DNA from: Carallia brachiata
Taxonomy: Eukaryota; Streptophyta; Magnoliopsida; Malpighiales; Rhizophoraceae
Length of the DNA: 64,000 nt
Reading direction: 5' to 3'
Assembly (NCBI GenBank): GCA_021464245.1
Contig: JADCRB010000068.1
Coordinates: 251,427 to 315,426 of the forward strand
The translations under genes were made by a program, and so were the position numbers. Of this stretch, positions 14,669 to 63,215 are shown piece by piece; the first letter of the stretch is position 1; every line of letters begins with the position of its first letter. The notes beneath the pieces were generated by a model. That model was not told where the DNA came from and did no database searches. It saw nothing but the letters and a program-made list of their open reading frames with translations.

Positions 14669-14705
<37 letters not shown>

Positions 14706-16828: not shown

Positions 16829-16864
<36 letters not shown>

Positions 16865-23185: not shown

Positions 23186-23236
<51 letters not shown>

Positions 23237-25257: not shown

Positions 25258-25498
25258 GCCCCCTTTAATTATTAGCCCTTTATTTTTCACTTTATATATT
25301 TTTTAAAAAAACTTGTATGGTTAGACTTTTGAAAAAGAGATAAGGTCCATAAATCACAATTTCTCTCACCATTCGTCAAGTATTCCTGATAGTACCATCC
25401 TACCAAGCAACATTTTCTGGGGTTCTAATCTCTCGCATTCTAATCCACGTTATGTGCGCAATTCCCATCTCCCTGTAAGCTCCATCCTTTTCACAACT

Positions 25499-27439
25499 AT
25501 GTTCACAATGAAGGGCGATGATATCTCCACCATTTTACGTATCATTTCCATGGCCCAACACATTGCAAGGCCACCACATAATGTGTCTTTGCCCAGCACA
25601 TCGGCCACCACTAGCACGGCCGCCACAAGTGAAATTAGCAATGTGGGCAGCAGTGAGTTTGATCATGAAAGCCATGAGAGGCTCCGAAGTCAATTGAAGA
25701 TGCTGGAAAAGGATCTTGCCGATGTCACCAAAGGCGTTAGTAGCGTCAGCGATGTAACGGAAGATGTCAGCTTGCTCACGTCGCTTAAAGACCAAGCTAA
25801 CAGCCTGCAGTGCATTTTCAGGGATGTACTTTGGGCTCCTGGTGGCGACATTATCTTCTCTGCTGACCAAGTTAACGCCAGCGTCCAGGGGTTGCTGATG
25901 TAGTCTTAAAGTTGAAGTCCCAAACTCCAGTTTTGAGAGTGGAAAGTGTCTCCGATTTGATAAACCATTTGGTTAAAATGCCGACTGATCAAAAGTATCA
26001 AGGTTGCTCAGCTTTGCAAGATTTTGATAAGAATTACAAGAGTCTCGGTCAGAGATTACAGCAGTGTTTGTTTTGCTTCTCCGCTTTCCCAGAGGGTACT
26101 GTTGTGGATAAGACACTGTTGATGTACTGGTGGGTTGGAGAGGGCCTGATAGACCCTGAAGTAAACGCTGACAAAATTATTGAGGATATTGCTAACGAGA
26201 TTGTGAAGAACTTCATAGAGTTTCAGTTCGCTGAGCCTGTTACCAAGAATGGGAAATTGGTTGGGCTTCGGATGCCTCCGCTTATTCGTTATGTAGTTGC
26301 GTACCTTGCAGAGCGAGCCAATTTCTTTGATTTGATTTCAAATGGAATCCGACATCAGACATCCATTTGTGCCATGGGGCATTCTTGATGGAAACGGCAG
26401 ATGGTTCTTCTCAAAAACAGCTGATTCAAGGCGCTCGGTTGCATCTACAGGAACTGACAACCCTGTTCAATTTCAATGGAGCCATGGTTGATATTAGAGG
26501 GAAATGGTTCCAGAAACTAAGGGATGTTAAAGTTCTCTTTTTGGGAGTGTGGGATGAACATTTTGATAGGGGATTTCAACTAAGAGGCAGCAAATCCTTA
26601 AAATGGTTGAAACGTATGAAGCATTTGAGATTTCTTGGTCTCCAAGATTTTGTAACAACTTCGGAGTTCCTAAAGGCTATTGGGAAGCTCGAAAACTTGA
26701 GGATTTTAACTCTCAGGGACTGGAGAGGATTTTTTGAATTAAAAAACAGTAAGTCACTGCAAAGGTTATCGCACTTGGAGTTCGGTGACCTAGACCGTGG
26801 GAGTCCCTTGCCCAAGGTGATAAGACAACTCCCAGAACTCCAAGTTTTGAAGGGAATTGGAATTTCACCGATTCAAGACTTTAATGGTACACTTTTTGAT
26901 GATTTAGCACGATTGAAGAAGTTGAGGAAATTGAGCATCAATGTTAGTTCGCATAGAACTTCTTTAGACATTACAGTACTGAACCATATTAAGTCTCTTC
27001 GAAAACTTACCATTCTGTGGGACGGTCGCCCAGAAAATGTGCACATACAATTTCCGATACTGCAGGGTTTGCAGAAACTGGCTCTCCGGTTTTGTCCCCA
27101 AGCCAGCTGTGGTGCCTTGCAGCAGTCATTCCCAAACCTCCAGAAGCTCTACATTATAGAGGGGGAGGTACGTGAACTACCAGAACTTCATTTGAGTGTA
27201 AAGATACTACGTCTCACAGACTTGCCTTTTTTGAACTTGGATTGGGAAAGTGTAACGCGTCAATTCTCGAGCTTGATTTATTTGCAAACAAATAGATGCC
27301 CCAATCTGACATCGTTCCCCTGTGAGCCAATGGAGTGTGGCTCAACGAGGAAAAGCTGACAGAGAAGAAGTCGTTAGAAGAATTGGGATTCAGTTGGTCA
27401 TTCCTTGCTTCTTATCCTTCATATGAACAACGTGTATGA
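25499..27439 (+). pseudogene. Full-length NLR-like copy NLR2 with three single-base deletions
   Basis: Co-linear with NLR1 from the leader to the stop (TGA 27437-27439). The start is taken at ATG 25499 (MFTMKGDD) or the in-frame ATG at 25508. Segments: N-terminal coiled-coil-like part (25499 to about 25888), winged-helix part with QCLFCFSAFPE and WWVGEGLI (about 26060-26150), RMPPLIRYVVAYLAER (about 26270), and LRRs (about 26530-27330). Relative to NLR1 a base is missing at about 25886, 26332 and 27328, each in or beside a short homopolymer. I see no nonsense substitution in the rest of the compared frame, although the LRRs differ considerably from NLR1. It lacks the P-loop region, as NLR1 does. 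It is a recent pseudogene, or intact with assembly errors. Confidence 0.85.
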
Positions 27440-34125: not shown

Positions 34126-36640
34126 TTTGCTTTAATGAATCTGAAATGGCCTATATTAGGAAGTAGTGAGTTTAAAAAAGTTGCACTAGAAAAAAGAAAA
34201 AAGAATTCTACTGTTAGTCTCATGGTCTTGAGTCTTACTGCTACATTAGTCAACTCAATTATAACTCTTATTGGTTGCGACCGAATAAACTTCATAGTTG
34301 TGAGTTTTGTTATTGGAGTACTAAGTGATTGATTTATTTGTAAAAAGAAAACATTCTGTTCTTTTGCATTTTTATTTATAAAATACTTTTCATAATTGTT
34401 GTAACAACAATTTTTCATAAATATAAGACTTAATCCGTTATTTCATTTCTACGTTAATGGTGTAACTTCTCTTTCTCAACGCTTAAATTAGTAATAGCAT
34501 CGAACTTATAAACCAGTTAACCAATCAAGTCAAGATTATAAGTATTAAGTGAAAATAGACTTATTCACATCATCAGAGAAGTTCAACTCATTAAATAAAA
34601 TAACAAATTAAGTATGCAAGTAAATCATAAAAGTTACAAAACTGTAATTGCTTATAATTCAGATTCAATCAATTAGAGTACATTGAGTTTTCCTTTGGGA
34701 AATCCCACAACACACTATCAAGTCAATACTACAATTAACTTCATATATATTAAATATTTTTCAATTAAATACATTTGACATCTTTGGATAAACAAATATA
34801 TGTAACCAAAAATATTAATATATGCTAATTATCGCTACTAATTACAGAATAATAATTTACTTTTGTGTAAATCCTGTAATTCTAATAATTAATAAAGCCA
34901 AATTATCCAATCATTTTCTTTTTATCATTAGTATTTCATTAAAATCATAGATAACTGACTATTGATGCCTATTGTTAAACATACCAGTTTGGCATTTTAG
35001 TGATTAACAAATTATAACAATAATGATTATTCAAACATTTTAATTTGGTCACTTTAGTAACAATCAAACTATAAATATAATATTGTATATAAACATACAG
35101 TTCAATATTATTTATAGTGCTAGACATAATATTCAAGTCCAAAAGTTATTAGATACATAGTTCAAAATTCACAAATGGTCACGGCCTATATACGTACATG
35201 GACTGAAACTGTAATTATGCAGCATAGACACATAACATTCTGCATTATTTTTTTTTCTTACATATCCCGTTGATCTTTGTGACTTCTTCATACAATGAAT
35301 ACTAGAAATTTCTTTGTGCTCTTAAGGAACAGCCGGGAGTTGATTTATGGAATTAAGTAAGTTCTTTGTCCTTTAATTCAATCATATATTTGTGGGCCGT
35401 TTAATAAGCAAGTTCGAGTTGCATACGCCGCTTTGTTCATAATTGAACAAATCAATAGATGTAGCTGACGGCGGCAAGACATTATCTTCGAACATCCAGT
35501 TTAGTGGCTGCAACTTATGTTTTTACAATTAAGATTTTTGGTTTAAAATCCTTCGACCACACGACATTCTTTTTACACTTAAGAAATTAATTATTCCTCA
35601 AGGTTGCACTGCCATCGTTCTATCGTTAAGGGATTTTATTCCCAAATTAGGATTGTAAATCGTAACTTACAACTTCGAGCACCTCAATAAAGGAATAATC
35701 ACAACATCCGTGTTGCTTTCTCTAGATTAAGGCTCATGTAGAAAATCTTGCAAGGAATTATATATTTCCTTTTGAACGTTAATAGTCAAACTAATGGCGA
35801 AACAACCCAAACTCTTAAAGCACACTTTATGTAATATATATATATGGGAAAATTTTAATGGCTGAAGGGAAAATTTCTAAAAAGTTGTCTGGAACTGTAA
35901 CTGACTGTATTAATTGTGCAATCAGTTTCATTTATTGGCAACGAAATGATAAGTGATTTTTTTTCTTTCATTTAGTTGCACTTGTAATTAAGGTGGTTGA
36001 ACAATAAATCTAATCAGTTGCATACTAGCAAATTCTCGAGCAAATTCCTCCGGCCATGTAATTGTGCCCTATATGTTCTATCACTTATCATAAAGCCCGG
36101 AAGCATTAGTATATATTAAATCACAATTCTCAATTACTATGGCCCCAAACGTAAATAAGCAATTGATATTTCTTTAAGGCCATCTTATTTTCGGTTATTG
36201 AACGATTAGAAATCGGGTATGTAGTTCTTAATCATACATAAAAAGTATTCATTTTTAAATTACAAGTTCTAATACAATTTGTTAGATTGAAAAATAAATC
36301 TATCATCATAAAATATAAGCTTTTTTGTGTCTTGAAACTGACTTTTACATCTTGAAACTGAATATAATCATCTAATTATTTTATAAATAACATATTTTTG
36401 AAATCGTTAATTCGTCTATATAGTTAGCCTTAATCAATTTCTCTCTCTCGACTTTTATTGGAATTACACGCTTTCAAATAGAGTTTTCGTGTGTGTTAGA
36501 AAAAGAAATGATCAGTTATATATATACAAATTTACACTTAATTTAGTATATATATTAATAATGAGATTAACAGTCTGGATTAATTTAATTAATTGATTAT
36601 TTCTTTATTAATTAAATTTTATTATGAATATTTTTTAATA
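34126..36640 (+). repeat. Block D, copy D4, without an NLR fragment in front
   Basis: Starts GCTTTAATGAATCTGAAAT, the same junction as in other copies, but the preceding sequence is copia-like rather than NLR. No solo LTR and no gag-only element are present, so it serves as an empty-site reference. The conserved island is at about 35370-35800. Confidence 0.75.
35846..36069. mobile_element. Small MITE in block D4
   Basis: Unique to this D copy. TIRs GGGAAAATTTTAATGGC and (reverse complement of the right end) GGGCACAATTACATGGCC. Flanked by TATAT/TA-rich sequence, so the TSD is uncertain. Confidence 0.5.
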
Positions 36641-38615
36641 TACGTATTCTTTAAGTATATTTTAAAAAAGAAAATATTAATGTTTTGAAATTTATTATTT
36701 CGGTTAGTGTTTTGATTGAAATTAAAATTAATATTTTTAAAATAAGAATGATATTTTTTAAACACCTAATATTTTGTATTTTTAAAAACTATCAATTCTG
36801 TTTAAAAATATTAATTTTAATTTTAATTAAAATATTAACTAAAATATTAAATTTTAAAATATTTAATTTCAAAATATATATTAGTGTTCACTTTGAAAAT
36901 ATTACTTTAAAATACAAATTAAAAATATTTTAAAGTATTAATGGTCGCTTCTCCATCCATGTCGATTAATAAGTGCTTCCTGTCTATCTTTTCCATCAAT
37001 GTGGATGCCCGGTTCCCCCAAAAAAGGAAAATGAAAATAATAGGACAAAGGATGTTCTATCATGGAAAATAATTGCGTTTGAATTTAGAAAAGACAAACA
37101 GGTAATAAAAATTGAATAACAAAAAGAAATGAATATTCATTATTCTTAATCACTGTCTTGAAATTTATTATCTTAGTTAGTATTTTGATTAACTTTTAAA
37201 ATAAGACTAATATGTTTTGAACACCTGATATTTTGTATTTTTAATAATTATCAATTCTGTTTAAAAATATTAATTTTAATTTTAATTAAAACATCAAAAA
37301 AAATATTTAATTTTGAAATATTTAATTTTAAAATATATATTAGTTTTTATTTTAAAAATATTATTTTAAAATACTAATTAAAAATATTTTCAAGTATTAA
37401 TGGCCGCTTCACCATCCATGTCGATTAATAAGTGCTTCATGTCTGTCTTTTCCATCAACGTGGATGACTAGTCCCCCCAAAAAAGGAAAATGAAAAGAAT
37501 AGGACAAAGGAAGTTCTATCATGGAAAATAATTACGTTTGAATTTAGAAAAGACATATAGAAAAAAAAAAAAATAGCCGAGGGAAAAAGAAGAAATGAAT
37601 ATTGATTATTTTTAATTACTGTCTTAAAATTTATTATATTAGTTGACATTTTAATTGAAATTAAGATTAATATTTTTAAAATAAAATTCTTAATTTTTTA
37701 AATACATGATATTTTATATTTTTAAAAATATCAATTTTGTTTAAAAAATATTAATATTACTATTAATTTTAATTAAAATATTAATTAAAATTTTAAATTT
37801 TAAAATATATATTAATGTTTATTTTAAAAATATTATTTTAAAATATTATTTTAAAATATTAATGGTCGCTTCTCCATCCATGCCGTTTAATAAGTGCTTC
37901 GTGCTTGTCTTTTCCATCAATGAGGATGACCTGTCCCCCCAAAAAAGGAAAATGAAAAGTGTAGGACAAAGGAAGTTCTATCATGGAAAATAATTGCGTT
38001 TGAACTTAGAAAAGACAAACAGGTAGTAAAAAAATGAATATACATTATTCTTATTCACTGTTTTAAAATTATTATCTTACTTCATGTTTTGATTAAATTT
38101 TAAAATAAGATTGATAAATTTTTAAACACTTAATATTTTATATTTTTAAAAAATATCAATTATATTTAAAAAATATTAATTTTAATTTTAATTAAAATAT
38201 CAACTAAAATATTAAATTTTAAAATATTTAATTTTAAAATATGTTTTAGTATTCACTTTAAAAGTATCATTTTAAAATATTAATTAAAAATATTTTAAAG
38301 TGTTAATTGTCGCCTTTCTAACCATATCGATTAATAAGTACTTCGTGCCTGTCTTTTCCATCAATGTGGATGACCTGTCCCCCCAAAAAAGGAAAATGAA
38401 AAGAATAGGACAAAGGAAGTTCTATCATGGAAAATAATTGCGTTCGAATTTAGAAAAGACAAACAGATAACAAAAAAGGAAAAGAAAAAAAAGAAATGAA
38501 AGGCTATCACACTCACAGCTTTCCACTAAAAAAAAAATCATCTTACTTATAAAAGGCCCCCTTTAATTATTAGCCCTTTATTTTTCACTATTTGTTTGTT
38601 TTTGCAACAAAAAAA
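36640..38615 (+). repeat. Promoter-module array 4, four copies
   Basis: Conserved blocks at 36943, 37402, 37864 and 38309 (spacings 459, 462, 445), the longest array in the window. It leads into the TATA box and leader of F4. Confidence 0.85.
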
Positions 38616-38967
38616 AAAAATGTATGGCTTTAGACTTTCGAAAAAGTGATCAGGTCCATAAAATCACAGTATCTCTCACAATTCCTTAATAGTGTATTTG
38701 GAGTGCAGTGATTAGAGGTGAAATATTCAGAGAAGCAAGAAAATTAGAAAAGAAATGAATAATCAGTTGTTTGGTGTGCAGGTGAAAATAGAAGGGAGTG
38801 AAAAGGAAGCGAAAGGTAGGCGAAAATTAGTGTGGGACCCACGTCAAAAATTTTATCCCCAAATTGGAGAGAAAGCTATCAGGAGGCAGACGGTTGTATA
38901 GTAAATTTACGAAATTGGCCTCAACAAAAAGGCATGAAACTAGGCAATGGAGAAAACAGTAAATTTA

Positions 38968-46899: not shown

Positions 46900-47975
46900 T
46901 TTTATTATGAATATTTTTTAATATACGTATTTTTTAAGTATATCTTAAAAGAGAAAATATTAGTGTCTTGAAATTTATTATCTCAGTTGGTGTTTTAATT
47001 AAAATTAAAATTAATATTTTTAAAACAAAACTGATAATTTTTTAAACACATAATATTTTGTATTTTCAAAAATTATCAATTTTATATAAAAATATTAATA
47101 TTAATTTTAATTAAAATATCAACTAAAATATTAAATTTTATAATATTAAATTTTAAATATATATTAGTGTTTATATTAAAAATAATATTTTAAAATATTA
47201 ATTTTTATATTAATTGTCGGTTCTCCATCCGTGTCGATTAATAGTGCTTCGTGCCTGTCTTTTCCATCAATCTGGATGACCTGTCCCCCCAAAAAAGGAA
47301 AATGAAAAGAATAGGACAGAGGAAGTTCTATCATGCAAAATAATTACGTTTGAATTTAGAAAAAACAAACAGATAACAAAAAGAGAAAAAGAAAACGAAG
47401 AAATGAATATTGATTATTCTTAATTAGTATCTTAAATTTTATTATTTTAATTAATATTTTAATTATAATTAAAATTAATATTTTTAAAATACGAGGGATA
47501 ATTTTTAAACATTTGATATTTTGTATTTTTAAAAAATATTAATTTTATTTAAAAAATATTAATTTTAATTTTAATTAAAATATTAACTAAAATATTAGAT
47601 TTTAAAATATTTAATTTTAAAATATATATTAATGTTTATTTTAAAAATATTATTTTAAAATATTAATTAGGAATATTTTAAAATATTAATGGTCGCTTTC
47701 CGTCGATTAATAAATGCTTCGTGTCTTTTATATCAATGTGTATGACCTGTCCCTCAGAAAAGGAAAATGAAAAGAAAAGGACAAAAGATGTTTCGTCATG
47801 AAAAATAATTGCGTTCAAATTTAGAAAAGACAAACAGATAACAAAAAAGGAACAGAAAACGAAGAAATGAAAGGCACCACACTCACAGCTTACCACTAAA
47901 AAAAAATCTTCTTACTTATGAAAGGCCCCCTTTAATTATTAGCCCTTTATTTTTCACTTTTTTTTTTTTCGCACA
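46900..47975 (+). repeat. Promoter-module array 5, two copies
   Basis: Conserved blocks near 47214 and 47691, then the TATA region and leader of F5 (about 47910-47980). Confidence 0.8.
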
Positions 47976-47985
47976 AAAAAATTGT

Positions 47986-48972
47986 ATGGCTTTAGACTTT
48001 CGAAAAAGAGATAAGGTCCATAAAATCACAATTTCTCTGACAATTCCTCAAGTATTCCTGATAGTACCATCCTACCAAGCAACATTTTCTGGGGTTCTAA
48101 TATCTCCCATTCTAACCACATTATGTGCGCAATTCCCATCTCCCTGTAAGCTCAATCATTTTCACAACTATGTTCACAATGAAGGGCGATGATATGTTTA
48201 CCATTTTACGTATCATTTCCATGGCCCAACACTTAAGATGCACGAACACGAAAATGAGACACAGATAAAACACAACATGGATACAGAGACATGATAATTC
48301 TAAAAAAATTAAGACACAAACACCTGCTAAACACAATTATAAAATATATTAAATATTATTTAGGTATGTATGTAATTTAAATTTTTTTTGTACATATAGT
48401 GCTTAATGACAATTATTACATTATTTTATGTTGTAACTTGTATTTTATTTATAATTCCTTTAAAAAATATTATATGTTTGTGTGTATATATATATAATAA
48501 AATATTTAAGTAAATAATATATAGGGTATAAAATATCCAAATTTAAATATCAAATACATATAAAAGTATCTGATGCGTATATTAAAATGTTTGATACGTG
48601 AATTAGAAGTGTTTAACATACATGTTCAATTTTTTTTTTATTTGATACGTTTCAAAATATCTCACACGTGTCTAATAACAATAAAAAAAATATTATTTCT
48701 GACAAATATTTCTGACACAACTACACATTATTTTAAAAGTTTCTATCCTTCCTAGCCCAACACATTACACGGCCACCACATAACGTGTCTTTGCCCAGCA
48801 CATCCGCCACTACTAGCACGGCCGCCACAAGTGAAATTAGCACTGTGGGCAGCAGTGAGTATGATCATGAAAGCCATGAGTGGCTCGAAGTCAATTGAAG
48901 ATGCTGGAGAAGGATCTTGCCGATGTCACCAAAGGCGTCAGTAGAGTCAGCGATGTAAAGGAAGATGACAGC
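47986..48972 (+). pseudogene. NLR 5' fragment F5, interrupted by a MITE
   Basis: uORF 47986-48192, main ATG about 48170, MITE 48233-48754, coding part 48755-48972. It shares the one-base deletion CTC-GAAG with F2 and F7. Confidence 0.85.
48233..48754 (+). mobile_element. Mutator-type MITE (M4)
   Basis: Same position as M1. TSD GCCCAACAC at 48224-48232 and 48755-48763. Shorter than M1 because the TA microsatellite is contracted. Confidence 0.85.
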
Positions 48973-50120
48973 TTTAATTAATCTGAAATGCCGCATATTT
49001 AGAAAGTAATGAGTTTAAGATAAACTGCCTTAAAAAAAAAATTCTTTAGTATTAATCCTATATTCTTGAGTCTTATTATTATATTAATCAACTGAATTAT
49101 GTGCTCTTATATGACTCACGACCGAATAAATTTCATAATTGTAAGTTTTGTCAATAGAGTATTAAATAATTGATTTATTTGTAGAAAGAAGATATTATTT
49201 AAAAATATTAATAATAATTTTAATTAAAATATTAACTAAAATATTTAATTTTAAAATATTTAATTTTAAAATATATATTAGTGTTTATTTTAATATATTA
49301 TTTTAAAATACTAATTAAAAATATTTTATAGTATTAATGGTCGCTTCTCCATCGGTGTTGATTAACAGTGCTTCGTGCCTGTCTTTTCCATCAATGTGGA
49401 TGACCTGTCCTGTCCCCCCCCAAAAAAGGAAAATGAAAAGAATAGGACAAAGGAAGTTCTATTATGAAAATAATTGCGTTCGAATTTAGAAAAACAAATA
49501 GATAACAAGAAGGGGAAAAGAAAGAAAAGAAATGAATATTGATTATTCTTAATTAGTGTCTTAAAATTTATTATTTGGGTTAATATTTTGATTAAAATTA
49601 ATATTAATATTTTTAAAATAAGATTGATAATTTTTTTAACACATGATATTTTATATTTTTAAATCAATTTTATTTAAAAAATATTAATTTTAATTTTAAT
49701 TAAAATACCAACTAAAATATTAGATTTTAAAATATTTAATTTTAATATATATATTAATGTTTATTTTAAAAATATTATCTTAAAATACTAATTAAGAATA
49801 TTTTAAAATATTAATGGTCGCTTTTCCATCCATGTCGATTGATAAGTGCTTGGTACCTGTCTTTTACATCAATGTGGATGACCTCTCCCCCCAAAAAAGG
49901 AAAATGAAAAGAATCGGACAATAGAAGTTCTATCATGAAAAGTAATTGTGTTCGAATTTAGAAAAGACAAACAGATAACAAAAAAAGAAAAGGAAAAGAA
50001 AAAGAAGAAATGAAAGGCAATCACACTCACAGCTTTCCACTAAAAAAAAATCTTCTTACTTATAAAAGTCCCCCTTTAATTATTAGCCCTTTATTTTTCA
50101 CTTTTTTTATAAAAAAAAAT
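48973..50120 (+). repeat. Short D remnant and promoter-module array 6
   Basis: Same structure as 15209-16344. Conserved blocks at 49339 and 49816. Confidence 0.75.
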
Positions 50121-50123
50121 TGT

Positions 50124-50716
50124 ATGGCTTTAGACTTTCGAAAAAGAGATAAGGTCCATAAAATCATAATTTCTCTCGCAATTCCTCAACTATTCCTGAT
50201 AGTACTATCCTACCAAGCAACATTTTCTGGAGTTCTAATATCTCCCATTCTAACCGCATTATGTGCGCAATTCCCATCTCCCTGTAAGCTCAATCATTTT
50301 CACAACTATGTTCACAACGAAGGGCGATGATATGTTTACCATTTTACGTATCATTTTCATGGCCCAACACCTAAGATGCACGGACACGAAAATTAGGCAC
50401 AGATAGAACACGACATGGATACAGAAACACGAAAATTCTAAAAAAATCAAGACACAAACACAGGTTAAACACGATTATAAAATATATTAAATATTATCTA
50501 GGTATGTATGTAATTTAAATTTTTTTTGTACATATAGTGCTTAATGATAATTATTACATTATTTTATGATGTAACTTGTATTTTATTTATAATTCTTTTA
50601 AAAAATATTATATGTTTTTGTGTATATATATATATATATATATATATTATGTATGTGTGTGTATATATATATAATAAAATATTTAAGTAAATAATATATA
50701 GGTGTATAAAATATAC
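50124..50716 (+). pseudogene. NLR 5' fragment F6, cut by a gypsy element
   Basis: Leader and uORF (50124-50330), then the Mutator-type MITE from 50371 (after TSD GCCCAACAC) to 50716, where the gypsy LTR begins. The rest of the MITE and the coding part are missing. Confidence 0.85.
50371..50716 (+). mobile_element. Mutator-type MITE (M5), left part only
   Basis: Matches M6 (60227 onward) up to AAAATATACT, then joins the gypsy LTR. Confidence 0.85.
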
Positions 50717-51515
50717 TGTAAACAAAGAAAAAAAAATGAATTCAATGGCCGACGTTGCCAATTTTGAATTGGCAACGCCGGCCAAAGAAAATTTTGAAAA
50801 AAAAAAAGATTTCTTTCCTATGTGATGTTCACATGAGAAAGGAACCCTATAAATAGGCCCCTGCCCCTCAGTTCAAAACAGATTCAGCAAATATGTAAAC
50901 AGAAAAATTCAGAGAATTTGAGAGAAAAAGAAAATTTTGAAAATCTCTTAAGAAAATTTCTCCTTTTCTTAGGTGCTTTTACTCTGCAGTATACTCTCTT
51001 AACTCCTTTTTGGGAGATATTTCAGGGGTAAGGCTTAAAAAATTTGCTGTTTCCATTTCTAAAATTATTTTTAGATTTATATTCTCCGATCGCCCTTAAT
51101 CTGAATTTATGAGAATATAGATCTGAAAATATCAAATTACTTCAAATCCAACTGGGATTAAGCCTCAAACGGCTCTCAACAAAATTCGAGCAGCTCATCC
51201 GAGAACAAGTCCCTTCAACCCTCGGTGAAATTAAGCCAGATCGGCTCAGATCAGGTCTCTGCGGTTCTTAACCGTAGTCAAAACGTCCAAATCAGATCCG
51301 GTTTCAGTCTACCCAGTTCAAGAAAAACCTGTGGAAATTATTTCTGTCAAGATCAAGCTCGTGCAGCCCTTGACGGAGTCAAAAAAGGAACACTAATCGG
51401 AGGATCTACGGAGATCGACCCCACGTAAATTTTCTTTTATTTTACAATTTTTATTTGTAATTTATTTTTGTATTTTCGAGTTTAATTGTTTTAGGCTCGA
51501 AATTTACGCTTTACA
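50717..51515 (+). repeat. 5' LTR of the Tat-type element
   Basis: TGTAAA...TTTACA, 799 bp. A GC-rich palindrome in U3 (50747-50783) and a TATA-like CCTATAAATAGGC near 50848. U5 shares the GGGATTAAGCCTC-type module with the other LTR family. The PBS-like TTTTTGGCACGCTCGGTGGG follows. Confidence 0.85.
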
Positions 51516-52360
51516 AATTTTTGGCACGCTCGGTGGGACATCTTCACCTCCCATCTCTTGTTCCTTAAAAAAAAAAAAAAGTAAAAGGGGAGCCGAGAGA
51601 GAAAAAAAAAAGACAAAAAAAAGAAAAAAAAAAAAGACAAAAAAAAAGTAAAAAGTAAAAAAAAGTAAAAAGTAAAAAGTAAAAAAAAAAAATAAAAAGT
51701 AAAAAAAAGTTAAAAAAAAAAAAAATTTTACAGGTTTCAGCACATCAAATGGCACCGAAAAAATACAGCTGCCGTACAACAAGAAGGCAACGGCTCCATT
51801 GCCTGCATCAACTACCCTACCTGGGTACGCAGGTCCAGAAACCCGGGGACGGACACAATTTCTTGCCGTCCAAACCCGACAAAATATCGAAACGGAGAGT
51901 CCACAGCTTGCACAACAGGATCTCTCCCCTGACTCTCTTGCCGCATGGAGGAGTCGATCACCCACCCCGATCGAAGTCGGGGGCAACACGACGAAGCCTG
52001 CTCAACAAATCCAACTCATTCTGTAGAGATCCACAGAGAATCAGAAGAGTTCTCCCCCAGTCTTTCCGGAGCCTCATCTGTTGCCGTCATGATGACCAAC
52101 ACAACCAGCACAGAAAAGATTTCAGAATTGGAGAACAAATTTTGCAGCTGATCAGAGTCGTGGAGGAAAAAGATCAACAGATCGCCGCTCTCAAAGGAAA
52201 GCCCGATCCAAGTTGATCCCGAAATCCGCGAGGAGCAACCATATCCACCCGGTTTCACTCCAGAAGCCACACCAGCCGACGTCTTCCTGCAGAAAAGCGA
52301 CCAGGTAGTTCTACACAGCTGCCACCCTCAAATTCTGTAGCTTCGCTATCTGTTCAACAA
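51516..52360 (+). other. Leader of the Tat-type element
   Basis: PBS-like site, an A-rich tract with GTAAAAAGTAAAA repeats (about 51567-51730), then low-complexity coding-like sequence that matches the 18600-18960 leader of the gag-only element near the gag start. Confidence 0.65.
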
Positions 52361-53453
52361 TTGCAGGAAATGATAGCCAATACGATCCGACTGCAACAAG
52401 CTACATCCTTCCAAGGATCACAGATGTACGTCAAACCGTACACCAGACGGATCGAAAGTCTCAACATGCCTTTGGGCTACCAGCCGCCCAAATTTCAACA
52501 ATTCGACGGACGAGGCGATCCCAAACAGCACATCGCCCACTTCGTTGAAACCTGCAACAACGCAGGGACTTACGGAGATCTCTTGGTGAAGCAGTTTGTT
52601 CGTTCACTCAGGGAGACCGCTTTCACCTGGTTCATAAATCTTGAACCAGAATCGATCGACAGTTGGGAACAGCTACAACGAGAGTTCCTCAACAGATTTT
52701 TCAGCACTCGAAGGACGGTAAGTATGATGGAGCTTACCAGCACCAAACAAAGGAAAGGAGAGCTCGTTGTCGAATACATCAACAGATGGCGTGCCCTCAG
52801 CTTGGACTGCAAAGATCGCCTGACGGAGACTTCTGCCGTGAGATGTGCATCCAGGGAATGCATTGGGAGCTGTTATACATCCTGCAGGGTGTCAAACCCC
52901 GAACTTTCGAAGAACTGGCGACCCGCGCACATGATATGGAGATAAGCATCCAGACTTCCGGAGGCACGGTTCCCATCCAGTTGGACCAGCAAGGGGGCAG
53001 AAGGGAGATTAAGAAACCCAACAGCTCCGGAAAAGGAAAAGAAGTGATGACTGTTGAAGCCGCACCAGTAAAAGTGGGCGCCAAAGCTAAGGTAAATCCT
53101 CCGACCCAAATAACTCAGCCAAAACAACAGGAAAGGCGGAAGGTGACATTGCGAGAGTTTGGAGCAGAAGCAGATATCCATACCCCGACTCAGACGTCCC
53201 CGACATTCTTGAACAACTCTTGGAGGCGAAGCTGATCGAACTCCCAGAGTGCAAGCGGCCGAATGAAAAGGATCGAGTCAGCGATCCGAGATTCTGCAAA
53301 TATCACCGGATAGTAAGTCATCCAACCGAGAAGTGTTTCGTCCTGAAGGAGCTAATCATGAAGCTCAAAAGCCAGAATAAAATCATTCTGGACCAGGAAG
53401 GCATAACTCTGCAAACCAGACCACCATCACTTCAAAACCATCAGAAGAGGTGA
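52361..53453 (+). pseudogene. gag: Retrotransposon gag of the Tat-type element
   Basis: The first frame (52361 to about 52830) gives MPLGYQPPKFQQFDGRGDP, LVKQFVRSLRETAFTWF and EYINRWRALSLDCKDR, the core of retrotransposon gag (PF03732-type). A frameshift near 52835 moves the frame to the [20 protein letters not shown] part (to 53235). A further shift leads to a knuckle-like CKYHRIVSHPTEKC at about 53296-53340. Structural capsid protein, inactive as written. Confidence 0.85.
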
Positions 53454-53689: not shown

Positions 53690-54259
53690 ATGAGGATCTC
53701 CTGCTGGGGTCCAAACCCCACAATCGGCCGCTGTATGTATCAGGCTATGTGAGAGAAGGTCCGACGTATTCTGATCGACGATGGCTCAGCAGTCAATATT
53801 ATCCCAAAATCCACCATAAAGGAGCTCGGCATCGGCATTGATGAATTATCAGACAGCCGCTTGATGATTCATGGCTTTAATCAAGGAGGACAGAAAGCAA
53901 TTGGGATGATTCGCTTGGAGCTAACTATCGGTAATCTCACTTCTAGCACTCTATTTCACGTGATTGATGCACGTACCACATATAAGATGTTGCTAGGACG
54001 ACCGTGGATTCATGGAAATGGAGTTGTGCTCTCAAGCCTGCATCAGTGCTTCAAGTACTACAATGGTGGCGTTCAAAAGGTCAATGCTGACTTAAAGCCG
54101 TTCGATGATGCTGAATCACATTTGGCGGATGCAGTCTTCTACACCGACACAGACAATCCGGAGATCATTCCATCAAAAGCTACTTGGACTGGGGGCATCC
54201 ACAAAAAGGGAAAAGCTGTCGAAGAACCTGCCAATGCCAACCCAGGCTCCAACAAATGA
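53690..54259 (+). pseudogene. pol: Retropepsin-like aspartic protease
   Basis: The active-site stretch ILIDDGSAVNIIP (Asp at about 53777) is in one frame. The C-terminal half MIHGFNQGGQKAIGMIRLEL and YKMLLGRPWIH (53861-54010) is in another frame, with a frameshift between them at about 53840-53860. The usual DTG/DSG is DDG here. Processes the polyprotein in active relatives. Confidence 0.8.
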
Positions 54260-54593: not shown

Positions 54594-56896
54594 TTGGCAA
54601 AGGCGGGCTATGACTTCTCAAACCCGAGCACAATGGGTACGCTGCCGTCCACACATGGCGCCGCTTCTCAAACATCACAGTCCCGACCTGGCTTAGGCTA
54701 TCAGGAGAAGTCACCTGTGCGGATCACGCTAAAGAGCCGAAGCCGAGCAGCTGATGCACGTGCCATCACCACCACCACCAAACAAGACAGGCTTATCCAG
54801 TCAAACAAAGAAGGTGAAGTCAGAGGTTCTGCATTTCATGTCACAATTAGCGAGGAAGCTGAGTCTGACTCATCAGATGGTGAAGTGAAGGAGGCTCCCC
54901 CGGAACTTGAAGATGGTGGCCAAGCAACTGTTGATGAACTCAAGGAGGTCAATCTTGGCTCTCCGGAAGATCCTCGACCTACATTTGTAAGTGCTTTACT
55001 TACTGCAGAAGAAGAGCAAGAATATGTTCAGGTATTAAGTCAATACAGGGACGTGTTCGCATGGAGTTACAAAGAAATGCCTGGACTTGACCCAAAAATT
55101 GCGGTGCATCGTCTAGCAGTAAAGAAGGGTGTCGTTCTGTCAAGCAGCCACAACGACGGTTCCGCCCGGAACTCATTCCACAAATCGAGGAGGAGGTGAA
55201 CAAGCTGATCAATGCGGCTTCATCCGAGAGGTCACCTACCCAACGTGGATTGCCAACATTGTCCCGGTAAGAAAGAAGAATGGACAGTTGAGGGTATGTG
55301 TTGATTTTCGAGATCTTAACAAGGCCTGCCCGAAAGATGACTTTCCGTTGCCCATAACGGAGATCACAGTCGATGCAACAACGGGTCACGAAGCATTGTC
55401 TTCATGGATGGTTCTTCAGGCTATAACCAAATCAGAATGGCACCAGAAGACGAGGAGTTGACAGCATTCCGCACCCCAAAAGGTATATACTGCTACAAAG
55501 TTATGCCGTTTGGATTAAAAATGCTGGCGCCACTTATCAACGTGCTATGCAAAAAATTTTTGATGACATGCTGCACAAGATTGTAGAATGTTATGTTGAT
55601 GACTTAGTTGTAAAGACTAAGAAGCGCAAAGACCACCTCGAGGATCTCAAGACAGTGTTCGAAAGACTTCGGAGGCATCAGCTCAAAATGAACCCTCTCA
55701 AGTGCGCATTCGGTGTCACATCAGGAAAGTTTCTTGGGTTCGTGGTGCGCCATCGTGGAATCGAAGTTGATCAGTCAAAGGTTGAGGCAATTCAAAAGAT
55801 GCCTGAACCTAAAAACCTGCACGAGCTGCGAAGTCTACAAGGAAAGCTGGCCTACATTCGCCGTTTCATCTCCAATTTAGCTGGGAGATGTCAACCTTTC
55901 CATCGGTTGATGAAGAAGGATGTCAACTTCGAGTGGGACGAAGCTTGCAGCAAAGCCTTTGAGAGCATAAAGAAGTACCTTTCCAATCCACCGGTCCTAG
56001 GTGCTCCAATTCAAGGAAAGTCGTTGATTCTCTACATTGCAGCGCAGGAAAGATCTTTGGGAGCCTTGCTTGCACAGGAAAACGAGCAGGGAAAGGAAGT
56101 TGCCCTGTACTACTTGAGCAGAACACTAAACGGTCCGGAGCTGAGTTATTCGCCCATTGAAAAGACATGTCTAGCACTGTTCTTTGCCATTGACAAGCTG
56201 AGGCACTACATGCAAGCTCACACGGTACGTCTCATTGCCAGAGCTGATCCTGTCAAATATATCTTATCCAGACCAATCTTGTCAGGACGACTTGCCAAGT
56301 GGGCAGTAATCCTACAAAGCTACGACATTGTCTACGTGCCTCAAAAAGCAGTCAAAGGACAAGCTCTAGCAGACTTCCTTGCAGATCACCCTGTTCCGTC
56401 AGATTGGGAGTTCACAGATGATCTTCCAGATGAAGAGGTCTTTTACATTGAGACACTGCCACCATGGACGATGTTCTTTGATGGTGCAGCAAGGCGTGAT
56501 GGTGCTGGTGCCGGCATAGTGTTTGTCACTCCTCAACGACAAATACTACCATATGCTATCATTCTCGGTGAGTTATGTTCAAATAATGTTGCTGAATACC
56601 AGGCTTTGATCATTGGTCTTCAAATGGCTGTCGATATGAAGATTCCAACTATAGAAGTCCATGGAGATTCCCAGCTCGTCATCAACCAACTTACAGGATT
56701 GTATGATGTGAAGAAAGAGGACCTTGCGCCTTACCATCAACGTGCTCGACAGCTAATGGATGAATTTGAAAGCATCACCTTGGAGCATGTGCCTCGACGA
56801 GAAAACACTCAGGCAGACGCGTTGGCTAACCTGGCCACTCTCTTGCAAAGTCAGAAATCCAGGCTACAGTTGTTGCCGTATGCCAGAAATGGATAG
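54594..56896 (+). pseudogene. pol: Reverse transcriptase, RNase H and second RNase H of the Tat-type element
   Basis: RT start (about 55000) EEEQEYVQVLSQYRDVFAWSY, then VRKKNGQLRVCVDFRDLNKA (about 55269), YVDD catalytic box (55592-55603) and the thumb region. Frameshifts lie near 55130, 55220, 55400 and 55525; 55547-56896 is open. The first RNase H (about 56029-56280) has LYIAAQERSLGALLAQE, with Ala where the first catalytic Asp is expected. The second RNase H (about 56467-56845) keeps Asp (FFDGAA), Glu (NNVAEYQA), Asp (HGDSQ) and Asp (QADALAN). This decayed-plus-intact pair is the Tat-lineage signature. Confidence 0.88.
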
Positions 56897-57099: not shown

Positions 57100-58203
57100 A
57101 GTTTACTTCGCTGCCTAGCAATGAAGAGGCAAAACAGGCTCTCACTGAAGCACATTCTGGTGTTTGTGGCGGACATCAATCGGGCCTAAGTTGCACTTCC
57201 AACTCAGAAGGATGGGATACTACTGGCCAACCATGGTACGTGATTCATTGAGTTTGCTAAAACTTGTCAAGCTTGTCAATTTCATGCAATTACATACATC
57301 AACCACCGGAGCCACTGCATCCAACTGTCTCATCCTGGCCCTTTGAAGCTTGGGGTCTCGACTTAGTGGGGCCCTTGCCAAAGTCATCCCTGGGTCACCT
57401 GTACATCCTCGCAGCAACCGACTACTTCTCAAAATGGGCTGAAGCCATTCCACTTAGAGAGGTAAAGAAGGAGCATGTTGCCAATTTCATCCGGACTCAG
57501 CTGATCTATCGCTATGGAGTCCCTCGATTCATCATCACTGATAATGGTAAGCAGTTCTACAACAGCTTAATCGACAAGCTCTGCGAGAAGTTCAAGTTCA
57601 AGCAGTACAAGTCATCCATGTACAATGCCCCAGCAAATGGCTTGGCTGAAGCATTCAACAAGACCTTATGCAACCTGTTGCGGAAGGTAGTCTCTAAATC
57701 CAAAAGAGATTGGCATGACAGAATTCCGGAGGCATTATGGGCGTATCGTACAACTTACCGGACTCCAACACAGGCGACGCCATACTCACTTGTCTACGGT
57801 GTCGAAGCAATACTGCCGTTGGAAACACAGATTCCATCCCTGCGCATGGCTGTTCTGGAAGGACTCACACAGGAGGAGAATGCTCGCCTACGTCTGGATG
57901 AGTTAGAAGCCTCGATGAAAGGAGGCTCGAAGCACAACAGCAACTTGAGTGCTACCAAGCCCGGCTCACCAACACGTTCAACCGCAGGGTCCGCCTCGAT
58001 CTTTTCAAGTTGGAGACCTTGTTCTTGCAGTGCGACGGCCCATCAACATGAAGCATCGGCCTGGTGACAAGCTTACTTCCAAATGGGACGGGCCATACTT
58101 AGTGCAGGAGGCCTACACTCACAACGCTTACATGCTGTCAGACCAAGAAGGCGTCCGAATCGGCCCAATCAATGGTAAATTTCTGAAACAGTATTATGTG
58201 TAA
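57100..58203 (+). pseudogene. pol: Integrase of the Tat-type element
   Basis: Zinc-binding N-terminus scattered over frames (AHSGVCGGHQ and CQACQFH regions, 57140-57290). The catalytic core is open at 57264-58067: Asp in GLDLVGPLP (57360), Asp in FIITDNGKQF (57540), Glu in NGLAEAFNKT (57648), giving DD35E spacing. The C-terminal part continues in another frame (57949-58203, WDGPYLVQEAY). Inserts cDNA in active relatives; frameshifted here. Confidence 0.88.
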
Positions 58204-58207
58204 ATAT

Positions 58208-58304
<97 letters not shown>

Positions 58305-58609
58305 CGAAGTCCCGATCTGAAAGACCAAGCGAAAATCCAAACCCAAACACTTGAGCCCAATTCAGAGTCAACTCAAAGCCACCAAAAGTCAGACTCAAAA
58401 TCAAACACTCACCCAAATCCAAAAGTCCAAGTCCAAAGCCCAAACACTCGACCCAAATCCAAAAATCCAAGTCTAGAAGCCCAAACACTCGACCCAAATT
58501 CAATCAAAAACCCAAAACCCAAAAATTCCAAGTTCCAGACACAGTCCAAAACCCAAGTTCAAAATCCAATCCAACTCCTGGCCCGCATGAGTATAAACTG
58601 TGAACGGCC
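58204..58609 (+). repeat. A-tract and CCAAA-rich spacer
   Basis: About 90 bp of nearly pure A (58210-58301) followed by repeats of CCCAAACACTCGACCC and AAATCCAAAA. The gag-only element has the same order (A-tract 20088-20160, then CCAAA-rich DNA), so this spacer belongs to the retrotransposon family. Lysine-rich translations are meaningless. Confidence 0.8.
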
Positions 58610-58615
58610 CAAAAA

Positions 58616-58623
58616 TATAAAAG
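58616..58623 (+). promoter_or_regulatory. TATA-like motif upstream of the homeobox ORF
   Basis: TATAAAAG in AAAATATAAAAGCGACGG, about 90 bp before the ATG at 58710. A related GCATGAGTATAAACTG is at 58585. Both resemble the TATA modules repeated eight times at the equivalent place in the gag-only element. Confidence 0.45.
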
Positions 58624-58709
58624 CGACGGAGGGTTTGAGTCTGAAACTCAGCATCAGTCTCAACCGATCTTCACCACATACCAAGACCTTTGCTCCTCTG
58701 CCACAAGAA

Positions 58710-59330
58710 ATGGAACCAGTTGCAGAACCTCAAGACAAGGGAGAAGAAAGGTCACCCCGCACAAGGTGGCAACCGACCATGGCACAACTGCAAATTTTGG
58801 AGGAAGTCTTCCACAACAATGGAGGTATTATTCCTAATGCATCTCAAATTTACCAACTTGTCTCACGATTGCGCCCGCTCGGGGCAATCGAAGGAAAAAA
58901 TGTGTTTATTGGTTCCAGAATCGGAGAAGCAGAAAAACCAGCACTGAGAACTGCTTCTTCCAAAGAACAGTCTGTCGTTCCGATAGTAAATCCCACTGGT
59001 ACAGCTTCGCCCTCAAATGAAGCAGGTCCGAGTTCTTCCACTGCAATGGTCTCTCCACGGTATGTTCATCAAAGCCGTAGCCCATGGGAAAATGCATGCT
59101 GGTCCTGGTGGTCTTACGGAGTCAGCCAAGGGTTCATCCCTCCTAGATACTTAAGTCTAGGAGGAATTTTTCTAGCAGAAAGGAGTTATTCCGGTGAAAC
59201 TTTGCCTCTCTTTCCAGAATATTCCGACAGCATCAACCAGCTGGAAAGCGACGTCGACGTCGACGTCCACATCATCGGCCCACCAGACGAGGTCGAGCTT
59301 GACTTGGAATTGCACCTCGGGCCCCGCTAG
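58710..59330 (+). pseudogene. WUSCHEL-type homeobox (WOX) ORF captured in a retrotransposon
   Basis: 206 codons from ATG 58710 to TAG 59328-59330. Residues 17 to about 66 read RTRWQPTMAQLQILEEVF... and IEGKNVF, the WOX homeodomain up to the start of helix 3. The helix-3 signature YWFQNRRSRK follows in the neighbouring frame (58907-58936), because one T is missing and one base is gained soon after. The main frame then continues to a WUS-box TLPLFP (59199-59216), an acidic stretch, and an EAR-like ELDLELHL (59295-59318) near the C-terminus. HD, WUS-box and EAR in this order define the WUS/modern WOX clade: nuclear repressors controlling stem cells. No intron is apparent, as expected for mRNA capture. 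The gap-free N-terminal domain and intact motifs argue for a real gene copy. The scrambled helix 3 probably abolishes DNA binding unless it is an assembly error. Confidence 0.85.
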
Positions 59331-59798
59331 GACGGCCGACAAGATAAGGTGCAACGACTTTGGCAGCACAGAGGGATGAGACGCTGCAATCATCCTAATC
59401 TTTCTTTGGATGCGGCGACGTACAGGGAAGTTCCAACTACTCTCCTTACGTCGAAGCAGACTTGGAAATCATCACTACAGTCAGTCTCTCTGTGTGCCGG
59501 TCTTGAAGTTCCAAGGTCCTGGGCCTTCCTCTTGGGGAGGTTCAAGTTCTTTGCCTACCGGATCATCCTCACCAGAGCTTTGGAACTTCAAATAACCTTT
59601 GCCAGCCTTTGCGAGCCATGGAAGCTCGAACGCACCTGGAGCCAAGACTTCAATTTTTATATTGGCTGGGCTGCTAACTTCCTCAAGATCATATCGGTTT
59701 CCATTGCGATCCAACAACAGTTGTATTAGTCGGAGATAGAAGATTTCAACATTCAATGTTCGTCAGAACATCTCAAGTTTCAACCTGGACTTCAAAAA
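59331..59798 (+). other. Tail between the homeobox ORF and the broken element end
   Basis: 59331 to about 59720 is not recognised and may be 3' UTR of the captured gene. It contains an inverted repeat (TTGAAGTTCCAAGG near 59503 and CTTTGGAACTTCAA near 59577). 59722-59795 matches the retrotransposon tail at 20898-20975. The junction with host repeat lies in an A-run at 59793-59800. Confidence 0.55.
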
Positions 59799-60475
59799 AA
59801 GTAATTGCGTTCGAATTTAGAAAAGACAAACAGATAACAAAAAGAAAAGGAAAAGAAAAAGAAGAAATGAAAGGCTATCACACTCACAACTTTCCACTAA
59901 AAAAAAATCTTCTTACTTATAAAAGTCCGCCTTTAATTATTAGCCCTTTATTTTTCACTTTTAAAAAAAAAAAAATTGTGTGGCTTTAAACTTTCGAAAA
60001 AGAGATAAGGTCCATAAAATCATAATTTCTCTCGCAACTCCTCAACTATTCCTGATAGTACTATCCTACCAAGCAACATTTTCTGGGGTTCTAATATCTC
60101 GCATTCTAACCGCATTATGTGCGCAATTCCCATCTCCCTGTAAGCTCAATCATTTTCACAACTATGTTCACAATGAAGGGCGATGATATATTTACCATTT
60201 TACGTATCATTTCTATGGCCCAACACCTAAGATGCACGGACACGAAAATTAAACACAGATAGAACACGACATGATTACAGAGACACGAAAATTCTAAAAA
60301 AAATTAAGACACAAAAACAGGCTAAACACGATTATAAAATATATTAAATATTATCTAGGTATGTATGTAATTTAAATTTTTTTTGTACATATAGTGCTTA
60401 ATGATAATTATTACATTATTTTATGATGTAACTTGTATTTTATTTATAATTCTTTTAAAAAATATTATATGTTTT

Positions 60476-60518
<43 letters not shown>

Positions 60519-61022
60519 TATGTATGTGTGTGTATATATATATAATAAAATATTTAGGTAAATAATATATAAGTGTATAAAATATACTAATTAAAATATC
60601 AAATACATATAAAAGTATTTGATATGTATATTAAAATATTTGATACGTGAATTAGAAGTGTTTGACATACGTGTCCAAATTTTTTTTTTATTTGATACGT
60701 TTCGAAATATCCGACATATGTCTAACAACAATCAGATAAATATTATTTCTAACAAATATTTCTAACACAGCTACATATTATTTTAAAAGTTTTTATGCTT
60801 CCTAGCCCAACAGATTACACGGCCACCACATAACGTGTCTTTGCCCAGCACATCCGCCACTACTAGCACGGCCGCCACAAGTGAAATTAGCAATGTGGGC
60901 AGCAGTGAGTTTGATCATGAAAGCCATGAGTGGCTCGAAGTCAATTGAAGATGCTGGAGAAGGATCTTGCCGATGTCACCAAAGGCGTCAGTAGAGTCAG
61001 CGATGTAAAGGAAGATGACAGC
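59799..61022 (+). pseudogene. NLR 5' fragment F7, interrupted by a MITE
   Basis: Begins within the last promoter module (GTAATTGCGTTCGAATTTAG), then TATA region, uORF frame from 59980 (GTG instead of ATG), main ATG about 60164, MITE 60227-60804, coding part 60805-61022 with the CTC-GAAG deletion shared with F2 and F5. Confidence 0.85.
60227..60804 (+). mobile_element. Mutator-type MITE (M6)
   Basis: Same position and ends as M1. TSD GCCCAACAC on the left, GCCCAACAG on the right. Long TA microsatellite inside. Confidence 0.85.
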
Positions 61023-62170
61023 TTTAATTAATCTGAAATGCCGCATATTTAGAAAGTAATGAGTTTAAGATAAACTGCCTTAAAAAAAAATTCTATAGTA
61101 TTAATCCTATATTCTTGAGTCTTATTATTATATTAATCAACTGAATTATGTACTCTTATATGACTCATGACCGAATAAATTTCATAGTTATAAGTTTTGT
61201 CAATAGAGTACTAAATAATTGATTTGTTTGTAGAAAGAAGATATTATTTAAAAATATTAATATTAATTTTAATTAAAATATCAACTAAAATATTAAATTT
61301 TAAAATATTTAATTTTAAAATATATATTAGTGTTTATTTTAATATATTATTTTAAAATACTAATTAAAAATATTTTATAGTATTAATGGTTGCTTCTCCA
61401 TCCGTGTTGATTAATAGTGCTTCGTGCCTGTCTTTTCCATCAATGTGGATGACCTGTCCTGTCCCCCCCTCCAAAAAGGAAAATGAAAAGAATAGGACAA
61501 AGGAAGTTCTATTATGGAAAATAATTGCGTTTGAATTTAGAAAAAACAAATAGATAACAAGAAGGGAAAAAGAAATAAAAGAAATGAATATTGATTATTC
61601 TTAATTAGTGTCCTAAAATTTATTATTTGGGTTAATATTTTGATTAAAATTAATATTAATATTTTTAAAATAAAATTGATAATTTTTTTAACACATGATA
61701 TTTTATATTTTTAAATCAATTTTATTTAAAAAATATTAATTTTAATTTTAATTAAAATACCAACTAAAATATTAGATTTTAAAATATTTAATTTTAATAT
61801 ATATATTAATGTTTATTTTAAAAATATTATCTTAAAATACTAATTAAGAATATTTTAAAATATTAATGGTCGCTTTTCCATCCATGTCGATTGATAAGTG
61901 CTTGGTGTGTGTCTTTTACATCAATGTGGATGACCTCTCCCCCCAAAACAGGAAAATGAAAAGAATCGGACAAAGGAAGTTCTATCGTGGAAAGTAATTG
62001 CGTTCGAATTTGGAAAAGACAAACAGATAACAAAAAAAGAAAAGAAAAAGAAAAAGAAGAAATGAAAGGCTATCACACTGACAGCTTTCCACTAAAAAAA
62101 AATCTTCTTACTTATAAAAGTCCCCCTTTAATTATTAGCCCTTTATTTTTCACTTTTTTTTTAAAAAAAA
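61023..62170 (+). repeat. Short D remnant and promoter-module array 8
   Basis: Same structure as 15209-16344 and 48973-50120. Conserved blocks at 61388 and 61868. Confidence 0.75.
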
Positions 62171-62176
62171 AATTGT

Positions 62177-62660
62177 ATGGCTTTAGACTTTCGAAAAAGA
62201 GATAAGGTCCATAAAATCATATTTTCTCTCGCAATTCCTCAACTATTCCTTATAGTACTATCCTACCAAGCAACATTTTCTGGGGTTCTAATATCTCCCA
62301 TTCTAACCACATTGTGTGCGCAATTCCTATCTCCCTGTAAGCTCTATCCTTTTCACAACTATGTTCACAATGAAGGGCGATGATATGTGCACCATTTTAC
62401 GCACCATTTCCATGGCCTAACGCTTAAGATGCACGGACACGGACAGGAAATACAGATAGGACACGATATGGTTATAGAGACACAAAAATTTTAAAAAAAA
62501 TTAAGATACGGGCACACAGCGTAGACATGATTATAAAATATATTAAATATTATTTAGGTATGTATGTAATTTATACTTTTTTTGTACATATAGTGCATAA
62601 TAATAATTATTATATTATTTTATGATGTAACTTGTATTTTATTTATAATTTTTTAAAAAA

Positions 62661-62700
<40 letters not shown>

Positions 62701-63215
62701 GTATGTGTGTGTATATATATAAATAATAAAATTATTAAGCAAATAATATATATGTCTATATAATATCCTAATTAAAATATCAAATACATATAAAAGTGTC
62801 TGACACATATATTATAAATATTCGACATTTGAGTTATAAGTGTTTGATACACGTGTTCGAATTTTTTTTTTTTTTTTTTTTGTTAAACATGTTTCGAAAT
62901 ATTCGACACATGTTTGGAAGTTGTCAGACAAATATCGCTTCTAATACACATGTCTGACATAGACCAACATTATTTTAAAAGTTTTTGTGCTTCGTAGCCC
63001 AACACATTACACGGCTGCCACATAATGTGTCTTTGCCCAGCACATCCGCCGCTGCTAGCACGGCCGCCACAAGTGAAAATTAGCAATGTGGGCAGCAGTG
63101 ACTTTGATCATGAAGCCATGGGTGGCTCCGAAGTCAATTGAAGATGCTGGAGAAGGATCTTGCCGATGTCACCAAAGGCTTTAGTAGCGTCAGCGATGTA
63201 AAGGAAGATGACAGC
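62177..63215 (+). pseudogene. NLR 5' fragment F8, interrupted by a MITE
   Basis: uORF 62177-62383, main ATG about 62361, MITE 62424-62996, coding part to 63215 with its own small indels (GTGAAAATTAGC, GATCATGAAGCC). Same subtype as F3. Confidence 0.85.
62424..62996 (+). mobile_element. Mutator-type MITE (M7)
   Basis: Same position as M1. The left TSD has decayed to GCCTAACGC and the right is GCCCAACAC. Confidence 0.8.

Follow-up and report, generated by a model that had tools for sequence, protein, structure and literature searches.

In the genome of Carallia brachiata, hundreds of copies of a retrotransposon carry a WUSCHEL-type homeobox (WOX) gene as a standard component. By the order of its domains, the element belongs to a Tat-like Ty3/gypsy lineage, and codon changes across its copies indicate that the homeodomain of the WOX gene is very likely retained by purifying selection. 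The copy described here lies in the window, by which we mean the whole 64,000-nt stretch that was analysed (G000:C132:251427-315426; G+C content 32.5%), in a genome of 337.5 Mb on 164 contigs.

Anatomy of the WOX-carrying element

The window copy retains the 5' long terminal repeat (LTR), a primer-binding-site-like sequence and recognisable gag-pol domains, with the WOX open reading frame (ORF) placed after the integrase:

50717–51515, + strand: 5' LTR of the WOX-carrying element, TGTAAAC...TTTACA, 799 bp (start and end motifs; match to the sequence following the polypurine tract in other copies)
51522–51539, + strand: primer binding site-like sequence TGGCACGCTCGGTGGGAC, directly 3' of the LTR
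52217–52945, + strand: gag (Pfam PF03732, E=6e-12)
53753–54259, + strand: aspartic protease-like region (Pfam PF13975, E=0.0011, under the curated cut-off)
55427–56896, + strand: reverse transcriptase, RNase H and second RNase H-like domain (Pfam RVT_1, RT_RNaseH, RVT_3), in that order
57261–58067, + strand: integrase (Pfam rve PF00665, E=7e-11), C-terminal frame broken in the window copy
58212–58301, + strand: A-tract opening the spacer between pol and the 3' LTR (sequence)
58560–58709, + strand: conserved –150..0 stretch, putative WOX promoter plus 5' UTR, with TATA box ATATAAAAG at 58615–58623 (sequence; conservation across copies)
58710–59330, + strand: WUSCHEL-type ORF, 206 aa (ORF, Pfam, phmmer)
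59334–59796, + strand: 3' tail of the element, ending before the polypurine tract (comparison with other copies)
59797–62769, + strand: flanking tandem-array sequence outside the element, 92% to 47801–50717 (repeat comparison)

RVT_1, RT_RNaseH and RVT_3 share one frame in the window copy and rve comes next, which is the Tat domain order; a dual RNase H is described as a Tat feature in PMC9289625. Downstream of the integrase follow the A-tract, a CCAAA-rich spacer, the WOX ORF and the tail. A sequence-only reading of this DNA had claimed retrotransposon sequence on both sides of the ORF, which holds with rve upstream and the element tail downstream, although the tail matches 20888–20971 (at 81%) and not 20898–20975.

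We then surveyed the genome for further copies, which the sequence-only reading had raised as a possibility, and found hundreds. A self-search with the protein gave 2273 first-look candidates, and all 150 that were scored had at least 81% identity. A 41-nt WOX motif was found at 755 sites when up to 3 mismatches were allowed, and a degenerate NVFYWFQN-coding pattern at 556 exact sites, with 0 in the reversed control of each; the 100 NVFYWFQN sites listed were mostly element codons, with a few host genes among them. An integrase-end motif, again with up to 3 mismatches, occurred at 634 sites (control 0). Two samples were drawn from these searches. The similarity sample comprises 68 of the 150 scored copies (eight as loci including the window copy, plus 60) and, being ranked by protein similarity, favours conserved copies. 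The position-order sample comprises the first 30 NVFYWFQN sites; one copy is represented by two of its loci, and five loci are shared with the similarity sample.

The spacer and tail surround the ORF, at least in part, in 68/68 copies of the similarity sample (window copy included), which lie on many contigs, and the integrase end stands upstream in 61/68, being absent within the fetched flank of the other 7/68. The earlier proposal that the ORF lies inside a Tat-type element, and is not a neighbouring host gene, is thereby supported. Seen from the integrase side, 26/48 exact integrase ends on contigs C1–C42 have a WOX site 625–828 bp downstream on the same strand, a count that includes one WOX copy known only from the protein self-search, and 22/48 have none at the expected place. 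We regard this anatomy and the copy number as practically certain. Pattern searches also gave 17 matches in viral contigs, none of them confirmed, and no match in plasmids.

A full-length ORF is present in 54/68 copies of the similarity sample and in 6/30 of the position-order sample. Within each of four groups of copies the ORFs are identical, a sign that the element moved recently. Several side observations concern individual copies. The last 95 integrase residues are uninterrupted in 22/55 copies with a readable integrase end (our own count), and copies with identical WOX ORFs (L022/L023/L024 and L061/L062/L065) have differing integrase indels. A divergent WOX copy, L068 (G000:C10:261984-264604; 90% DNA identity), has the helix-3 end NRRHRETV and perhaps represents an older subfamily. 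At G000:C1:424766-425653 (L069/L070), two WOX copies stand in tandem 862 bp apart, one of them without an ORF start.

The 3' end of the window copy is incomplete: it breaks at 59796, where it adjoins the tandem array that also sits left of the 5' LTR, and lacks about 440 nt that other copies have after the stop, together with the polypurine tract and 3' LTR. A search for the polypurine-tract motif found no match anywhere in the window. We had considered 59797 as an LTR start and rejected it, as other copies continue through the tail up to the polypurine tract. The tract and LTR start lie within the fetched flank of 58/68 copies, 903–934 nt past the stop in the four measured (L002, L003, L004, L008). 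LTR starts diverge strongly between copies; the sequence after the polypurine tract matches window positions 50828–51417 at 83–94% in L002–L005 and L008, and the window 5' LTR at 74% in L007. The 3' flank of L006 has no match to the window 5' LTR and matches repeats at 18037–18280 and 21268–21512, from which WOX-carrying copies may have more than one LTR type.

AT-rich arrays with nested repeats, which range from several hundred bases up to some 2.1 kb, recur in the window and surround the element (46959–50717, 59797–62769, 10817–17000, 22717–25561 and 36072–38689). Related units that carry only gag, about 78% similar in gag amino acids, occur at window positions 18598–21032 (gag at 18.9–19.5 kb) and in L103 (window coordinates 64248–66000). 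They have a leader or primer binding site similar to that of the WOX element, and the tail of the 18.6-kb unit resembles the WOX element tail; neither unit showed a match to pol, integrase or WOX. They are probable non-autonomous derivatives.

The WOX protein and the evidence for selection on it

In the window copy, the ORF runs in a single 206-aa frame from an ATG at 58710 to a stop at 59328–59330, exactly as the sequence-only reading had it, and its WOX character was confirmed by phmmer matches to the WUSCHEL homeodomain structure (PDB 6ry3; E=2e-11, hence not chance) and to STENOFOLIA (5.6e-9). The same reading had seen a homeodomain, WUS-box and EAR-like motif. The latter two are in place, TLPLFP at 59199–59216 and LDLELHL at 59298–59318, but the homeodomain of this copy is not intact: it begins at about 58755 and loses the frame in helix 3 at about 58908, just past IEGKNVF, where the sequence-only reading had ended. 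Compared with other copies, it carries two small deletions that scramble this helix, the WFQNRR codons of the recognition helix lying in another frame until the second deletion restores it. Because these codons are out of frame, the Pfam Homeodomain score of the window ORF (18.4 bits) stays below the cut-off of 22.9. A homologous-protein search with this frame-broken ORF gave 152 candidates, none at E<=0.01. A separate observation bears on frame breaks in this assembly: a plastocyanin gene, the sole genome match (L106, G000:C132:8794700-8795180), has its transit peptide and mature part in different frames; either the assembly contains an indel here or the gene is broken. Since plastocyanin also shifts frame, single-base frame breaks in the assembly need caution, and some may be assembly errors.

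The intact copy L003 passes the Pfam Homeodomain model (PF00046, 47 bits) and has a WOX-type homeodomain, matching WUS (PDB) at E=4e-18 without gaps and STENOFOLIA at 4e-16 with one gap, which substantiates the homology to WOX proteins. In these alignments the extra homeodomain residue of WUS is common to the element protein. The AlphaFold model of the intact copy has three confident helices (residues 24–36, 44–57 and 62–76), with block pLDDT of 83–88 over residues 21–70 and below 50 outside the homeodomain (mean 50), where a low-confidence helix is predicted at 126–140. Its top PDB matches are WUS homeodomains, including the WUS homeodomain on DNA (TMt 0.92, 54% identity). Among full-length ORFs, the exact WUS-box TLPLFP is present in 43/54 of the similarity sample and 3/6 of the position-order sample, and the EAR-type LxLxL motif in 53/54 and 6/6, respectively. 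The Pfam EAR model was not significant in L003 (E=0.65), had no match in L016, and matched L068 weakly at a different location.

Selection was estimated from tree-based counts of changes that take the observed mutation spectrum into account; no correction was applied to the p-values, and the trees may be distorted by recombination. In the similarity sample, homeodomain omega was 0.34 on internal branches (p=0.0027) and 0.62 on terminal branches (p=0.0097), and the position-order sample, analysed without the searched motif, gave 0.35 (p=0.036) and 0.48 (p=0.0011). The middle part of the protein had internal values of 0.57 (p=0.048) and 0.67 (p=0.14) in the two samples, and the C-terminus, containing the WUS-box and EAR motif, showed no purifying signal in either (internal omega 1.30 and 1.34, not significant). 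The +1 frame control of the similarity sample is not neutral and deviates the opposite way (1.69 internal, p=0.013; 1.18 terminal, p=0.15). Internal branches of the similarity sample carry 0 stops against 7.8 expected (p=6e-4), but the position-order sample showed no significant depletion (4 stops, 6.7 expected). When pooled, 567/963 changes are C-to-T or G-to-A transitions, the pattern that methylation and silencing of the copies would lead one to expect.

Conservation extends upstream of the coding region. The TATA-box sequence ATATAAAAG occurs within –200..–1 of the ATG in 83/99 fetched entries; this total includes five loci twice, and L069 and L070 represent a single copy. The motif TATAAAAG stands mostly at –94..–96 and is found in 0.6% of base-shuffled sequences. 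Among 85 distinct copies, mean pairwise identity is 0.954 over –150..0, 0.952 in the homeodomain and 0.783 over –400..–200, and falls from 0.919 to 0.867 and 0.854 over three successive stretches after the stop (the last being +450..+850). That the TATA-containing region is as conserved as the homeodomain suggests a dedicated promoter and leader at –150..0.

Probable origin of the WOX gene by capture

A search with the WUS homeodomain separated host genes from element copies: nine host loci had 64–84% identity, and the other 141/150 scored matches had 51–56%, the level of element copies. Two of the host loci, L104 (C90:2365921) and L105 (C65:261060), are WUS paralogues by homeodomain and WUS-box; both bear introns, and the presence of two paralogues suggests a past genome duplication. 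L101, another of the nine, looks WOX1-like, and L099 looks WOX11/12-like.

The sequence-only reading had proposed the reverse-transcribed capture of a WOX mRNA. In host WUS L104, helix 3 and the WUS-box are 1173 nt apart with 13 in-frame stops between them, whereas the element ORF is continuous, and capture of a spliced mRNA fits this difference; intron loss in later RNA cycles would give the same picture. The reading had also suggested a search for the intron-bearing donor. Host WUS and WOX1-like genes with introns lie elsewhere in the genome, and the motifs and a weak tree differ on which WOX served as donor.

The homeodomain of L003 has 26 to 34 identical residues of 66–68 positions (39–51%) against every WOX compared, including 31–32/68 identical amino acids against the host WUS homeodomains. 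With identity this low, the capture looks old, and we rejected a recent capture from a host WOX gene. In a homeodomain tree resting on 66–69 residues, the element genes formed one clade (99.5/100) on a long branch that joined WOX9, L099 and WOX13 (87/80), not WUS, which speaks against a place inside the WUS/modern clade. With so few residues, long-branch attraction is likely. Motifs indicating a WUS donor are IEGKNVFYWFQN, the extra residue and the WUS-box; the RRSR end of the element's helix 3 also resembles the WOX11-like L099. On these motifs we lean slightly towards WUS as the donor, with the tree position an effect of long-branch attraction.

Explanations and known systems

The explanation that we favour, with some reserve, is an old uptake of a WOX gene by a Tat-like lineage, which kept it as an accessory gene bringing a benefit in the meristem. 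A Tat-like Ty3/gypsy lineage would long ago have taken up a WOX transcript, WUS-type by its motifs, which, intronless and in the sense direction, came to lie after the integrase and ahead of the 3' LTR. Transcription of the gene would start at a promoter of its own and not at the LTR, and the protein would enter the nucleus, bind WUS-type (TAAT/TGAA) sites and repress them through the WUS-box and LxLxL motif. The element might profit from this action in shoot-meristem cells, whose descendants make gametes, either because the stem-cell state is maintained or because transcription of the element and of host genes is tuned in the meristem. Such action would pay since the descendants of shoot stem cells are germ-cell progenitors, in which transposon insertions must be avoided according to PMC7560203. 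The meristem mechanism itself we hold to be less likely than not.

The gene could instead be a piece of WOX picked up by chance and functionless, its open frames being those of young copies. The four groups with identical ORFs do indicate that open frames partly reflect youth, omega in the C-terminus is near 1, and the LTR-amplified WOX of Vigna is reported without a known function in PMC10714607. Against this stand the homeodomain omega of about 0.35 on internal branches of two samples, the greater conservation of the promoter region than of distal non-coding sequence, and a homeodomain that, at 39–51% identity to WOX homeodomains, has still kept WFQN and its fold, which would need long selection; we therefore think a functionless passenger unlikely. 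WUS helps to keep stem cells virus-free, an example of a host function that the element could gain from dampening, were its WOX protein, with a decaying co-repressor tail, to occupy WUS sites, or were WOX-matching small RNAs to act on host WUS. The WUS-box part, being without constraint, leaves room for a decoy that binds and represses poorly, selection being seen in the homeodomain and none in the C-terminus, and hundreds of copies could supply many small RNAs. Yet LxLxL is kept in 53/54 and 6/6 full-length ORFs, and with 31–32/68 amino acids identical to host WUS in the homeodomain, small RNAs would hardly match; interference of either kind seems quite unlikely to us. A last pair of possibilities is a normal host WOX gene with introns that the element entered, or an assembly chimera. 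The frame breaks seen in the window copy are all that speaks for them; the same surroundings recur in 68/68 copies on many contigs, and the host WUS and WOX1-like genes are separate, intron-bearing and elsewhere. The inserted-host-gene reading was rejected on these grounds, and the chance of either is vanishingly small.

Old uptake with retention as an accessory gene has a further-reaching form, in which a retrotransposon lineage would own a WUS-type stem-cell factor with a dedicated promoter, comparable to a retrovirus-like accessory regulator, whose action in the meristem would lead into the germ line, and in which the Vigna elements would be independent or share an old WOX-carrying ancestor. 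We consider this form doubtful. An element-borne relative of a stem-cell master regulator, present in hundreds of copies with its DNA-binding part apparently under selection, allows a direct test of the route by which transposons enter the plant germ line. WOX genes counted in annotated genomes may in part be element-borne.

Compared with WUSCHEL (PDB 6ry3, 6ryd), the element protein has the common homeodomain fold, extra homeodomain residue, WUS-box and LxLxL motif, with 33/68 homeodomain residues identical in L003. Unlike WUSCHEL, the element gene is short (207 aa) and intronless, and helix 3 ends in RRSRKKP in place of HKARERQ.

Amplification of WOX by LTR elements is already known from Vigna. 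PMC10714607, a meeting report that describes a preprint by Naito et al. (2022), states that V. marina and V. riukiuensis contain many copies of WOX (over 1000 in V. riukiuensis), most of them flanked by identical LTRs and with target site duplications. The present genome is probably not that of a Vigna: its plastocyanin shares 77 of 92–93 residues with each of the chains 9pcy (French bean), 4dp0 (poplar) and 1ag6 (spinach), and by inference from this and from 76% identity to poplar plastocyanin, Vigna and Salicaceae were both rejected as its source. Both systems have a WOX gene in very many copies with an LTR element; here it follows the integrase of a gag-pol element, with a conserved TATA region and selection in the homeodomain, on which the account in PMC10714607 is silent. 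A literature search for WUSCHEL with transduplication or gene capture gave no match, and among the open-access journal papers listed by further searches we found no report of selection on, or a dedicated promoter of, an element-borne WOX, or of WOX in a gag-pol Tat element.

Uptake of accessory genes by Tat-type elements is documented in orchids (PMC9289625) and in Retand elements (PMC11963269). Retand elements, also of the Tat type, are described as carrying extra ORFs downstream of pol and ahead of the 3' LTR; these are antisense and mostly TRP28, whereas the ORF here is sense and WUS-type, and the main text of PMC11963269 has no words starting with homeo, WUS or WOX. The orchid Tat/Ogre-like Gypsy elements, which like the element described here belong to the Tat family and have a dual RNase H, are reported to have fixed a functional host-like gene, an AlkB m6A demethylase, as an additional ORF. 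The orchid elements, as described there, encode an RNA demethylase within 25 kb and have large LTRs, whereas the Carallia element encodes a transcription factor and has a 0.8-kb LTR.
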